Assembly: GCA_024229195.1 (NCBI GenBank) | Contig: JAAESS010000005.1 | Coordinates: 1-41,043, forward strand | Length of the DNA stretch: 41,043 nucleotides | Direction of reading: 5' to 3' | Source: Flavobacteriales bacterium | Lineage (GTDB): Bacteria > Bacteroidota > Bacteroidia > Flavobacteriales > Flavobacteriaceae | In this document: positions 32,192 through 36,996 of the stretch, piece after piece | Layout: the number at the start of each line of letters is the position of its first letter | Position numbering within the stretch: the stretch's first letter is position 1 | Notes under the pieces: model-generated | Told to the model about the DNA's origin: nothing | Databases searched by the model: none | The model's input: only the letters and a program-made list of their open reading frames with translations | Made by a program: the position numbers and the translations under genes

Positions 32192-32773
32192 ATGTTTCAA
32201 CTTGATAAAACCATTGTTTCCGAAGAAATTCTTGAAAAGGAATTTGTTTGTAATCTGAATGCATGTAAAGGAGCTTGCTGTGTTGACGGTGATGCGGGGG
32301 CACCACTTGAACAAGAGGAACTGGTCATATTAGAAGAAATACTCCCGGTACTTAAGGGTTATTTGAGACCAGAAGGGCTTCAAGCCATCGAAGCACAAGG
32401 GCTTTATACGACCAACGAGCAAGGGGAACATGAGACAACTTTGGTCAAAGGAGAGGATTGTGCCTATGTGATCTACGATGAAAAAAATGTTGCTATGTGC
32501 GGAATTGAAGAGGCATATAATCAAGGAGAGATATCATTTAAAAAACCTATTTCCTGTCATTTATATCCTGTAAGAATTAAACAGTACAGTGAGTTTGCTG
32601 CCGTTAATTATGATAAATGGGAAATATGTGATGACGCTTGTAGTCTTGGAAGCGAACTTGGAGTTCCAGTTTACAAATTTGTCAAACAGGCACTTATTCG
32701 AAAATTTGGTGAGGATTGGTACTTTGAACTAGAAAAAGTCGCTGATCAAAGAAACAATTCCAATCTTAGCTAG
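32192..32773 (+). CDS. DUF3109 family cysteine-rich protein
   Basis: This is a 193-residue soluble protein with a characteristic cysteine cluster: FVCNLNACKGACCVDGDAGAP near residue 20, then GEDCAYVIYD, AMCGIEEA and ISCHLYPVRI. The order resembles YkgJ-type metal-binding domains and fits DUF3109, which is frequent in Bacteroidota. A zinc- or Fe-S-binding role is likely, but no reaction is known. It has its own promoter. The CHAT-domain gene follows after 67 bases on the same strand, and TTGAAGCTCTTCAA (32774-32787) lies just after its stop. Confidence 0.88.
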   Translation: MFQLDKTIVSEEILEKEFVCNLNACKGACCVDGDAGAPLEQEELVILEEILPVLKGYLRPEGLQAIEAQGLYTTNEQGEHETTLVKGEDCAYVIYDEKNVAMCGIEEAYNQGEISFKKPISCHLYPVRIKQYSEFAAVNYDKWEICDDACSLGSELGVPVYKFVKQALIRKFGEDWYFELEKVADQRNNSNLS

Positions 32774-32840: not shown

Positions 32841-35696
32841 GTGGTAAATAAAGTTTTATATATTTTTATTCTTTTTCCCTATCTAATCTATGGTCAAACT
32901 ATAGGTAAGGATTATGTGATTTCCGAAAACAAAAGAGCCTCTGAACTCAATCGCGAAGGAAAATTTTTACAAGCCAACAAAATTCTAGATAATCTTCTAT
33001 TAAGCTTAGAGGACGAAAACAGTGAAGAGAAACTTTTTGCCGCAACTTATCAGATCAAAGCAAAAGTTGTTCAAAGTCTCGGAAATTACGAGGAATCAAG
33101 CAAGTTAGCCAGGCAATCACTTATGATAAGCCTGAAGGATCACGATAGTCTGAACATGGCAGACAATTATAATACCATTGGGGTCAATCATTATTTCGAA
33201 GCCGATTATGACAGCACGACTTATTATTATGAAAAATCTTTAGACATAAAAAGAAAAATAAAGACTGATCCATATGCCTTAGCGGTATCCACTTATAACC
33301 TGGCACTTGTTTATGATGATTTAGGTCAGACGGATAAAGCAATGGAATTTTATGAGCAGGCCGAAAAGTATCTTATAGAAAGTAAGCATAGCAAGAATTT
33401 CTTATCAGATGTATATGTAGGAATAGCCTTGATTCATTTTTATTCGGGAGATATTTCTAAAGCTGAACTATATGCAGAAAAGGCAATGGAGAATGGCTTG
33501 ATATCCTATGGAGAATACAATCCAAACATGACTTTTGTCTACACCACGTATGCAAATATTCTTGAAGCGGATAAAAAATATGATGAGTCTATATCATTAC
33601 TGGAAAAAAATTTAAAAATAAGGCGTTCTACCTATGGTGAATTTCACAGGTGGACTTGCGAAACATACTACGATCTCGCGAATGCCTATGTATTGGTAAA
33701 GAACTATGATAAAGCTGAGATGCATTACAAGAAGGCATTGGAAATTGGCAAAAAAATTAACAGCCGTCAATATTTGGCTAATGCAAGAAACTTTTTAGCG
33801 CAACTTTATATCGACCGAGGAATTCATTTAGATGAATCAGAAAGGTTACTTCAGGCCTCTCTTGCAACCAATCTTAATATCTATGGAGACAAAAGTGATC
33901 TTGTTGCTGAAAACTACCTTCATCTGGCAAAAGTGTATAAGCGTAAAGAGGAGGGATCACACTTTCATGAATATATTCAAAAGAGTCTTGATGCTGCCAA
34001 TTATAATCAAAATGATCTGAATAGTGTAATTGGTCCTTTTCAAGTTTTGGATGCATTGATGCTTGTCAGTGAATGGTATAATGAAATCTATGAAAAGGAG
34101 AAATCTATTGAATATTTGATTGATAGATATGAACTTATAGACCAAAAGATGTCACTGATCAAACACACTCAGAATAACTTTTCATCTGACCGATCACGCA
34201 TAAATTTTGCAAATAAATATCGAGAAGTTTTTGAAAAAGACCTCGGTCTTTGCTGGTTGCTTTATCATAAAACGCTGGAACAGAAATATCTTCAAAAAGC
34301 CTTTGAGCTATCTGAAACCAATCGAAACACTACTTTATTAACAGGGCTTCAGGGAATTGAATATAGATCTTATGGTGACATACCAAAAGACAAACTTGAG
34401 CTTGAAAATTCAACGAAAAAGGCATTGGAAAAAGTAAAAATGGATATCTTTTTTGAAAAGACTGCCAGTGAGCCCGATAAGGAATATTATAGATCTTTGT
34501 TAGACGATAGAATTTTATTGAGTAACAAACTGGACAGTATTTATAAGGATTTTTATAAGAATTATCCAAAATTTAAAATTATTGAATCAGCGAATGAATC
34601 AACAAGAATTGAAGATGTTCAAGCTCAATTAAATGAAGAGACACAATTAATCGCCTATTTTTTGGGAGAACAAAGTTTGTTTAGCTTCAATATTACTAAA
34701 GATACCGTAAGCTTGTTAAGAGCTGATATTTCTGATAAATTGATTAAAAGCACCAATGATTTTAAAAATCATTTATCAAAAAGAGAGGATATAAATGAAT
34801 TAAGTTATGACCTGTATATGTATTTGTTAGGTCAGCAACTGAATCGAGAAAAAAAGAACCTCATCATTGTGGCCGATAATGTTTTGAATTATATTCCTTT
34901 TGAAATACTTAGGTCTTCAAATGGCTCGCTGCTTATAGAAAATTATAATGTTAGTTATAATGGTTCGGTGAGGATATATTTAGAGCTGAAAAAGGACTTT
35001 TTCAACTATGAAACACCCAATAATTGGGTGGGATTTGCACCTAAATACTTTAATGATGCAACATTGTCATCATCTATAGAAGAGGTTAATGAAATTGCTA
35101 AGCTGACTGATGGAGTAAAATTTATAGAAGGAGCAGCAAACAAGGAAAATTTCAGATTGCATAATAAAGAATTCTCTATTATACATTTAGCGATGCATGC
35201 TAAAATTGATAACGAAAACCCTCTCTATAACAGATTACTTTTTGATGATGAGGAACTTACCGCCTCTGAAATCTATACCTCAACTTCAAAAGCAAATTTA
35301 GCTGTATTAAGTGCTTGCAATACAGGTTTTGGTAAAATTGAAAAAGGGGAAGGGGTAATGAGTATGGCAAGAGCCTTTCACTATTCAGGAATACCCTCTG
35401 TTCTTATGAGTTTATGGAAGGTTCCGGATCAGGAGACTAAAATCATCATGACAGATTTTTATCGATACCTAAAAAAAGGGAAGAGTAAAAGTGAATCATT
35501 GAGAATGGCAAAGCTCAGTTATTTGGATAGAAACGACCATAATACTTTAGATCACCCTTATTATTGGTCAGGCTTTGTGATCAATGGAAATACTGATGCT
35601 ATGGATTTGAATAGTGGAAATTCATCGATTCAATGGATCATCTTAAGCATTTTTTCACTTCTTTTACTGGGTTTTTTATACCAGAGATTTAAATAA
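32841..35696 (+). CDS. Secreted TPR-CHAT caspase-like protease, C-terminally membrane-anchored
   Basis: This is a 951-residue protein starting at a GTG; the only other in-frame codon before an upstream stop is TTT. A signal peptide (1-18, LYIFILFPYLIYGQ) leads into many tetratricopeptide repeats (about 35-430; for example ALAVSTYNLALVYDDLGQTDKAMEFYEQAEKYL). A helical linker follows, then a CHAT domain of about 610-920. The caspase-like dyad is intact: IHLAMHA with His786, and VLSACNTG with Cys826. The C-terminus has one membrane helix (about 926-946, IQWIILSIFSLLLLGFLY), placing the protease on the periplasmic face. It abuts, stop to stop, a gene for a membrane TPR anti-sigma-like protein. 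A protease-sigma switch is proposed in the findings; the substrate is unknown. Confidence 0.9.
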   Translation: MVNKVLYIFILFPYLIYGQTIGKDYVISENKRASELNREGKFLQANKILDNLLLSLEDENSEEKLFAATYQIKAKVVQSLGNYEESSKLARQSLMISLKDHDSLNMADNYNTIGVNHYFEADYDSTTYYYEKSLDIKRKIKTDPYALAVSTYNLALVYDDLGQTDKAMEFYEQAEKYLIESKHSKNFLSDVYVGIALIHFYSGDISKAELYAEKAMENGLISYGEYNPNMTFVYTTYANILEADKKYDESISLLEKNLKIRRSTYGEFHRWTCETYYDLANAYVLVKNYDKAEMHYKKALEIGKKINSRQYLANARNFLAQLYIDRGIHLDESERLLQASLATNLNIYGDKSDLVAENYLHLAKVYKRKEEGSHFHEYIQKSLDAANYNQNDLNSVIGPFQVLDALMLVSEWYNEIYEKEKSIEYLIDRYELIDQKMSLIKHTQNNFSSDRSRINFANKYREVFEKDLGLCWLLYHKTLEQKYLQKAFELSETNRNTTLLTGLQGIEYRSYGDIPKDKLELENSTKKALEKVKMDIFFEKTASEPDKEYYRSLLDDRILLSNKLDSIYKDFYKNYPKFKIIESANESTRIEDVQAQLNEETQLIAYFLGEQSLFSFNITKDTVSLLRADISDKLIKSTNDFKNHLSKREDINELSYDLYMYLLGQQLNREKKNLIIVADNVLNYIPFEILRSSNGSLLIENYNVSYNGSVRIYLELKKDFFNYETPNNWVGFAPKYFNDATLSSSIEEVNEIAKLTDGVKFIEGAANKENFRLHNKEFSIIHLAMHAKIDNENPLYNRLLFDDEELTASEIYTSTSKANLAVLSACNTGFGKIEKGEGVMSMARAFHYSGIPSVLMSLWKVPDQETKIIMTDFYRYLKKGKSKSESLRMAKLSYLDRNDHNTLDHPYYWSGFVINGNTDAMDLNSGNSSIQWIILSIFSLLLLGFLYQRFK

Positions 35697-36443
35697 TCAT
35701 TGGAGATAATTCAAAACTTCTTGAGCTTCTTGTTTTTTAAAATTTGAAGAAGGATTATTCTGAATGAGAGACAGTTTTTCAATCGCTTTTTCTGTTTCAT
35801 TATTTTTCAGAAGGGCCAATGCTATATACCAATTTGCCTTTTCTATTAAGCTTATGGATCGATCATCTACATTCTTATTAGAGGCTACTTGATTCAATAA
35901 AGAAATCGCTTCATCCGGTTTATCTAAGGCTAAATAACATAAACCTTTATAGTACATGATATAATTCAGGTCAGGATTTTCTACTGAATTAAATAAATTA
36001 ATGGCCTTATAAAAATCTTGTGATTCATAGGCAACAAAGGCAAGATACTCTATTGTTTTTGAGCTCTCTCCTCTGACAACAGGTTGAACAGTATTTCTAT
36101 CGAATTGGAAATATGTTTTATAAATGGCTTCATTGGATGGATAATAGATACTTTTCACTCCCCATACTCCTAAAGCGGTGATCAGCAAAAAAGAAGCTGC
36201 GACCATCCACTTTTTTGGGATTCGCATGAAGCTAGAATTCAATTTTGCTTTATCCTCAATTTGAGAAAGTGTAGACTTTAATTCTTCTTGTTGGCTTCGC
36301 TTGATTACCTGTCTCAGGTCCTTTTGAAAAATAAATTCGTCTTTAAAATTTGAATCGTTTTGCAAAAGGTTATTAAAAAGTTTCTGTTCCTTGGGACCAA
36401 GAGAATCATTGAAATAGCGATCTATTAAATCATGATTTTTCAT
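35697..36443 (-). CDS. Membrane-spanning TPR protein, anti-sigma-factor-like
   Basis: This is a 248-residue protein. The N-terminal cytoplasmic region (1-75), DLIDRYFNDSLGPKEQKLFNNLL ... FKDEFIFQKDLRQVIKRSQQEEL, has the pattern of short helical anti-sigma domains common in Bacteroidota. One membrane helix follows (about 79-96, WMVAASFLLITALGVWGV). The outer part (about 110-248) has TPR-like repeats (LAFVAYESQDFYKAINLFNSV, YYKGLCYLALDKPDEAISLLNQV, WYIALALLKNNETEKAIEKL). Its 5' end overlaps the sigma gene by 14 bases, implying coupled translation. Holding the sigma factor at the membrane is inferred from topology and context. The TPR region could bind the TPR-CHAT protease. Confidence 0.8.
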   Translation of the reverse strand: MKNHDLIDRYFNDSLGPKEQKLFNNLLQNDSNFKDEFIFQKDLRQVIKRSQQEELKSTLSQIEDKAKLNSSFMRIPKKWMVAASFLLITALGVWGVKSIYYPSNEAIYKTYFQFDRNTVQPVVRGESSKTIEYLAFVAYESQDFYKAINLFNSVENPDLNYIMYYKGLCYLALDKPDEAISLLNQVASNKNVDDRSISLIEKANWYIALALLKNNETEKAIEKLSLIQNNPSSNFKKQEAQEVLNYLQ

Positions 36444-36996
36444 AATGCTTATTGACCAAATCTTTTAGTTGTTTGATACAACGTGATTTTTGGCTTTTTA
36501 AAACTTTTTTATTACTATAGTTTAAAATTGACCTGATTTCATCAAGGTTATAGCCCTGATAATAAAACAAATTTAAAATACTTTTACATCTATCACCTAA
36601 TTGGTCATAGTATTTTTTTAATAGCTGTTGTTCCTTAGTTAAAACTGGTCCGTAAAGGTTAACATCAAAATCGATATCTTCTTCAACCAGATTAAAATCA
36701 TTCGTTATGTGCAATTTTGATTTAACTCTAAAGTTATGAAATATTCTGTATTTACCAATCGCAAAAAGATAGGTTGAAATATTACTTTGTAAATTATCAA
36801 TTCGACCATTGATAGCATTATCTCTGAGGATCAGAATGGAATCCTGATAAATATCGATTGCATCAGATTCATTTACATTATATTTTTTGGAAAAATTGAT
36901 GAACCCCTCTCTATTATCAAGATATATTTTTTCTAGGGTTTTAGTGTCGCCCTGCTTTAATAAGTCTATGATATTTTTTGATTCTTGGAGATTCAT
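36430..36996 (-). CDS. ECF-like RNA polymerase sigma factor of CHAT module
   Basis: This is a sigma-70 family protein of 188 residues from the ATG at 36996. The track start at 37005 is a TTG that overlaps a -7-like CTTTG, so I prefer the ATG. Region 2 lies around 20-85 (YNVNESDAIDIYQDSILILRDN, ISTYLFAIGKYRIFHNFR). Region 4 covers about 125-180 (LGDRCKSILNLFYYQGYNLDEIRSILNYSNKKVLKSQKSRCIKQL), with a helix-turn-helix. It overlaps the membrane TPR gene by 14 bases. The two genes form an operon facing the TPR-CHAT gene. Target promoters are unknown. Confidence 0.88.
   Translation of the reverse strand: MNLQESKNIIDLLKQGDTKTLEKIYLDNREGFINFSKKYNVNESDAIDIYQDSILILRDNAINGRIDNLQSNISTYLFAIGKYRIFHNFRVKSKLHITNDFNLVEEDIDFDVNLYGPVLTKEQQLLKKYYDQLGDRCKSILNLFYYQGYNLDEIRSILNYSNKKVLKSQKSRCIKQLKDLVNKHYEKS

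Follow-up and report, generated by a model that had tools for sequence, protein, structure and literature searches.

A predicted protease-gated switch pairing periplasmic TPR-CHAT proteins with bitopic TPR anti-sigma factors in Bacteroidota

In type III-E CRISPR systems (Craspase), the TPR-CHAT protease Csx29 cuts Csx30, which inhibits an ECF sigma factor (PMC10028731). Csx29 is cytoplasmic, bound to Cas7-11 and activated by target RNA, and has neither signal peptide nor membrane anchor; Csx30 does not belong to the bitopic TPR proteins, and the residue preceding its cut (P1) can be A, L or M, with no conservation (PMC11106740). In the ECF54 group, genes for a CHAT protein and a subtilase are conserved beside the ECF sigma factor, and the group is said to be without an anti-sigma factor (PMC8999054). 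The RseA-DegS-RseP pathway has a bitopic anti-sigma factor whose periplasmic stalk receives the first cut from a PDZ-trypsin protease, and a second protease of the RseP type. DdvA of Myxococcus xanthus has its CHAT domain fused into the anti-sigma factor itself, and its PDB entries (8rot, 8rw5) are titled transmembrane anti-sigma factor, CHAT domain-containing protein. The literature searched, with preprints and most subscription journals lying outside it, contained no paper joining a periplasmic CHAT protein with an anti-sigma factor in Bacteroidota.

Here we describe a trio of genes in a window of 41,043 nucleotides (the whole stretch of DNA analysed) and its relatives across the phylum. The source genome is a draft bin from a Flavobacteriaceae-type family, and its nearest named relatives are Lutimonas, with 64-66% identity in the CHAT protein. 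ORF calls recovered a CHAT gene, an anti-sigma-like gene and an ECF sigma gene (Table 1). The stop codons of the two facing genes abut (CHAT TAA at 35694-35696, anti-sigma TGA at 35699-35697), and the sigma and anti-sigma ORFs have 14 bases in common (36430-36443); coordinates, abutting stops and overlap were all as an earlier note on this DNA had given them. Upstream of the trio, a DUF3109 gene (32192-32773) stops 68 bases before the CHAT gene, and near relatives keep a gene of the same size at this position; the two genes may share one transcript, or this may merely be old synteny.

Table 1. Features of the trio and their positions in the window
Feature	Position	Strand	Details and basis
TPR-CHAT protease, periplasmic, membrane-tethered (predicted)	32841..35696	+	951 aa, GTG start; ORF, PF12770, TPR families
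Signal peptide, residues 1-18	32841..32894	+	Hydrophobic N-terminus, conserved in kind among relatives; cleavage predicted before Q19
TPR helical region, residues 23-596	32907..34628	+	Pfam TPR matches, AF2 helices
CHAT peptidase domain, residues 663-917	34827..35591	+	PF12770
E748, predicted S1 acid reading P1	35082..35084	+	Start of alpha1 after beta1; equivalent of gingipain R D163/separase E917; P1 covariation
Catalytic H786	35196..35198	+	Invariant, 205/205 linked CHATs
Catalytic C826	35316..35318	+	Invariant, 205/205 linked CHATs
D863, predicted second S1 acid, alpha4 N-terminus	35427..35429	+	First in helix 863-878; D in all E748 CHATs, E in type II
C-terminal transmembrane anchor, residues 928-946	35622..35678	+	Hydropathy, conserved in relatives
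Bitopic TPR anti-sigma factor (predicted)	35697..36443	-	248 aa; overlap with sigma gene, NF052375 on homologues, AF2
Periplasmic TPR domain, residues 131-247	35703..36053	-	Pfam, AF2
Predicted cleavage site R124|G125, periplasmic stalk	36069..36074	-	Conservation, AF2 loop, covariation, decay
Transmembrane helix, residues 77-100	36144..36215	-	AF2, hydropathy
Cytoplasmic helical domain, putatively sigma-binding, residues 3-68	36240..36437	-	AF2, positive-inside rule
ECF sigma factor	36430..36996	-	188 aa; TIGR02937 over cut-off

The CHAT domain matches PF12770 with 182.3 bits (cut-off 24; E=1.8e-53 in the Pfam profile search) and is preceded by TPRs. Together with the His/Cys dyad, this profile match identifies the protein as a CHAT peptidase, with predicted proteolytic activity. 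The AF2 model has a mean pLDDT of 92, and the nearest solved folds are those of Csx29 (best: 8eey) and separase. CHAT homologues as a rule carry a signal peptide and, at the C-terminus, a transmembrane segment followed by basic residues. The earlier description of this protein as a secreted TPR-CHAT with intact His786 and Cys826 and a C-terminal anchor was borne out by the residues, the signal peptide and the transmembrane segment.

The middle protein is encoded with the sigma factor and has an N-terminal cytoplasmic domain and one transmembrane helix, as a bitopic anti-sigma factor does. Its AlphaFold model has a mean pLDDT of 91, and a fold search returned TPR proteins only. The NCBIfam anti-sigma model NF052375 gives weak matches to 22 of 41 homologues and misses the window protein itself, so that position, topology and homologues are the basis of the label 'anti-sigma'; the cytoplasmic domain probably binds the sigma factor. 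The third protein, as had been proposed, is a sigma factor, scoring 47.8 bits against the NCBIfam sigma70-ECF model TIGR02937 (cut-off 42.9). The second protein had been read as membrane-spanning, which agrees with the single helix and with the K and R residues on its N-terminal side; this side is the richer in K/R in 116 of 119 such proteins. Hydropathy, the positive-inside rule and the signal peptide thus place both the CHAT domain and the anti-sigma TPR domain in the predicted periplasm, and the two membrane proteins face the same compartment, where the earlier note had counted a confident prediction of opposite compartments against its proposal.

The trio is like the Csx29-Csx30-CASP sigma system in having a TPR-CHAT protein of the same family (by profile matches and the best fold match, 8eey) and an inhibitor of an ECF sigma factor as the proposed substrate, and by analogy Csx29-Csx30 can be considered its functional parallel. 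In contrast to Csx29, the window CHAT carries both a signal peptide and a C-terminal anchor. Neither a Cas7-11/crRNA partner nor a CRISPR locus nor a cytoplasmic location was found for it, and no CRISPR was seen in the window or in the neighbourhoods of relatives. There are no direct repeats of at least 22 bases within 400 bases in the window, and therefore no CRISPR array; PADLOC, run on the three proteins, matched nothing except a generic TPR model. A CRISPR or defence locus was rejected on these two results, in line with the earlier statement that no CRISPR component is present. DdvA is among the fold matches of the CHAT protein, but in the window the two functions are carried by separate paired proteins with genes on opposite strands. 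The proposed switch shares with RseA-DegS-RseP the bitopic anti-sigma factor, a first cut predicted in the periplasmic stalk and an RseP-type second protease, for which a gene is present here. The linked protease is, however, not DegS-like but a CHAT protein: it has the caspase fold of a cysteine peptidase, its TPRs are the putative sensor, and the ectodomain of the proposed substrate is itself made of TPRs. In ECF54 a CHAT gene lies beside an ECF sigma gene as it does here, and subtilase genes occur in some relatives of the window locus too; as far as the published description allows comparison, the groups differ in that the window cassette has an anti-sigma factor (PMC8999054). Csx29-Csx30 and DdvA are the closest known systems to the two-protein periplasmic arrangement, which suggests that the CRISPR-linked switch belongs to a broader CHAT/anti-sigma theme.

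Of 151 genomes of the family, 62 contain CHAT relatives and 54 the anti-sigma factor. Half of 40 neighbourhoods were convergent as in the window and 10 were sigma/anti-sigma/CHAT operons (type II), the rest being divergent or interrupted by genes. A set of 80 loci from named genomes was taken on CHAT similarity only, so that linkage played no part in the choice; in 69 of them an anti-sigma gene lies within about 6 kb (convergent in 61), and of the remaining 11, three (L141, L168 and L187) end at contig ends. This is strong adjacency, where the earlier note had named a lack of co-occurrence across genomes as grounds for abandoning its proposal. An operon as the sole conserved arrangement was rejected, the convergent one being the commonest; whether gene order is convergent, operonic or divergent, linkage is maintained throughout. 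At L180 and L192 the CHAT gene even lies between the sigma and anti-sigma genes on the opposite strand, with linkage still kept. The same trio is found in dozens of genera, far beyond chance, and relatives extend to Cytophagales, Chitinophagales and Saprospiraceae. Where a genome carries more than one copy, the CHAT, anti-sigma and sigma genes share their nearest relative in 14 of 20 tests, and by this measure the three genes appear to travel together.

Between the transmembrane helix and the TPRs, the anti-sigma factor has a loop (residues 112-130) in which R124 is the most conserved residue and the surroundings are variable. R occupies this column in 95% of 107 homologues outside type II, with G or S at P1' in nearly all, and the column lies 20-24 residues outside the membrane across homologues (24 in the window protein). 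Type II anti-sigma factors have M in the same column, followed by S or G. A cut at this column leads one to expect an S1 pocket that is acidic with R and neutral with M. Residue 748 of the CHAT domain is L or I in type II versus an invariant E in the rest; this column was chosen from type II alone and was confirmed afterwards in an unrelated clade. Across 140 loci, in which three R are shifted in the alignment and one row is a broken gene, all E748 CHATs pair with R/K and all L/I748 CHATs with M. Within type II, position 748 is L, V, I or T in all 42 intact CHATs, and the M is invariant in 44 linked partners; the operon-type system L236 has R in the partner and E748 in the CHAT. Sampling of the whole phylum gave a second, unrelated clade with a neutral 748, and 35 of 35 partners there have M or L at the site.

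The full set comprises 205 non-redundant pairs. E748 is matched by R/K in 123 of them, and in three more read by eye, where the R lies one or two residues off in the alignment; a non-acidic 748 goes with M/L in 77 (two independent clades) and with K at two loci. No other CHAT-domain column pairs with P1 as well as column 748 does in this set. On a tree of 409 branches the P1 class changes twice, each time in a clade where 748 changes too. Only three independent changes of 748 are found, and in the third (L272, L323) P1 becomes K rather than neutral; this neutral-748/K pair is a partial exception to the pairing.

The acids that receive P1-Arg in gingipain R, MALT1 and separase are found at the same secondary-structure places, with gingipain R D163 and separase E917 as counterparts of CHAT 748 (PMC4626109), the likeness of 748 and 863 to known S1 acids being one of secondary-structure position alone. 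In the AF2 model, the catalytic Cys region is succeeded by a strand and then by a helix that begins with D863; this residue is D in all E748 CHATs and E in type II. By profile alignment, the solved Craspase TPR-CHAT chains have the 748 region deleted and a non-acidic residue at the 863 position, which fits the varied, neutral P1 residues (A, L, M) published for Craspase homologues (PMC11106740). Since these homologues tolerate varied P1 residues, the pairing is not a general CHAT rule. For the periplasmic systems we propose an S1/P1 code in which E748 goes with R|G/S, L748 with M|S/G, A/S748 with M|D/G and V/M748 with K|S/G.

The fate of the motif after loss of the protease was followed in six type II anti-sigma factors from genomes with no intact type II CHAT. 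Their motif is kept at 20 of 42 positions versus 187 of 222 other conserved positions of the same proteins (p=1.2e-6), with the six loci pooled, some of them at a shared genomic site, and the signal coming from four or five of the six. In CHAT-linked type II anti-sigma factors 99% of the motif is kept, and at L102, where the CHAT gene is freshly broken by six stops, the motif is still there. Congeneric genomes with an intact CHAT exist for the loss cases G044, G133 and G350, which marks at least three of the losses as recent and separate. Three of the six loci are without a sigma gene too, and loss of the sigma factor relaxes the whole anti-sigma factor, a concern that the within-protein control answers in part. 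After CHAT loss the motif thus appears to decay faster than the rest of the protein. Full-length anti-sigma ORFs persist at L104, L110 and L201, which share a genomic site, after loss of both CHAT and sigma genes.

We consider it very likely that the trio is a regulated-proteolysis switch, in which the CHAT protein cuts the anti-sigma stalk and frees the sigma factor. The sigma factor would be held by the cytoplasmic domain of the anti-sigma factor, and the tethered TPR-CHAT protein would presumably be activated by a ligand or stress acting through its TPR superhelix. It would then cut the stalk after R124 (R124|G125), 24 residues outside the membrane, Glu748 and Asp863 forming the S1 pocket that chooses the residue before the cut. 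With the TPR ectodomain removed, the stub would be exposed to the site-2 protease RseP and to cytoplasmic proteases, and its degradation would leave the sigma factor free. The sequences themselves supply the gene linkage, the topology, the intact dyad, the covariation of S1 and P1, the decay of the motif after protease loss and an RseP-family (M50) gene in the genome (PF02163 at G000 C141), to which we add, by inference, the cut itself, the site-2 step, an activating signal and a regulon. The earlier note had proposed that the periplasmic protease cleaves the outer TPR domain of the anti-sigma factor to release the sigma factor; linkage, topology, covariation and motif decay support cleavage and release, while the cut within the TPR domain gives way to the juxtamembrane stalk site.

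That a CHAT pocket and one anti-sigma residue change together in more than 200 gene sets means that the protease very probably cuts the anti-sigma factor, but this covariation could also be compatible with docking without cutting. The main rival sharing the sequence signature of the switch is a securin/separase-like lock, in which the loop fills the CHAT active site uncut and the protease is inhibited or held in a stable sensor complex. It would predict the covariation and the motif decay equally well, and the nearest folds of the CHAT protein, Csx29 and separase, speak for it. The conserved residue is, however, the one that Arg-specific clan CD enzymes favour at P1, the small residue after it is substrate-like rather than inhibitor-like, and the dyad is intact in 205 of 205 CHATs, all of which makes such a lock unlikely.

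Alternatively, the CHAT protein may be an output of the sigma factor, a regulon member that cuts other envelope proteins and is linked by co-regulation only. The secreted proteins, retropepsin-like protease and response regulator beside CHAT at type III loci would suit such a role, as would the upstream region that the type I CHAT has of its own. The tracking of position 124 by the S1 residue and the decay of the motif after CHAT loss would be left unexplained, and inspection by eye found no obvious common promoter element upstream of the CHAT and sigma genes; we judge this very unlikely. The R-G element could also cap the TPR domain structurally, its correlation with CHAT 748 being a matter of clade history, given that 748 changes only three times on the tree and that several other columns differ between clades too. 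Two independent clades have nevertheless reached M with a neutral 748, this is the best column in the domain and stands where related enzymes read P1-Arg, and the loop is the first part to decay on CHAT loss, which leaves a structural cap the least probable account, and a highly improbable one.

Regulated proteolysis of the stalk may extend to the whole phylum. It seems likely that a family of free-standing periplasmic caspase-fold site-1 proteases, each matched to one bitopic TPR anti-sigma factor through the S1/P1 code, controls many Bacteroidota ECF sigma factors. A recognised class I anti-sigma domain lies near only ~6% of the ECF sigma factors of the phylum (PMC7406223), and for the control of these sigma factors the trio offers a specific mechanism, a predicted cut site and a predicted specificity residue. 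The S1/P1 pairing would also give orthogonal, insulated protease switches for engineering.

Additional genes adjoin some of the loci. At the type III loci L091-L095 (e.g. L092:4129-11000), CHAT is preceded by a PKD/DUF7849 protein and lipoprotein-like genes and followed by a retropepsin-like aspartyl protease and by a LuxR response regulator. A subtilase (PF00082) gene lies between the anti-sigma/sigma gene and CHAT at L245, L312, L313, L318, L325, L335 and L272, which belong to the second M-type clade or are the K-type locus; the subtilase may supply the cascade with a second protease. Small lipoprotein-like genes without a Pfam match adjoin CHAT at two divergent loci (L100:7830-8210, L098:7345-7803), and are possible ligands or inhibitors of the protease.
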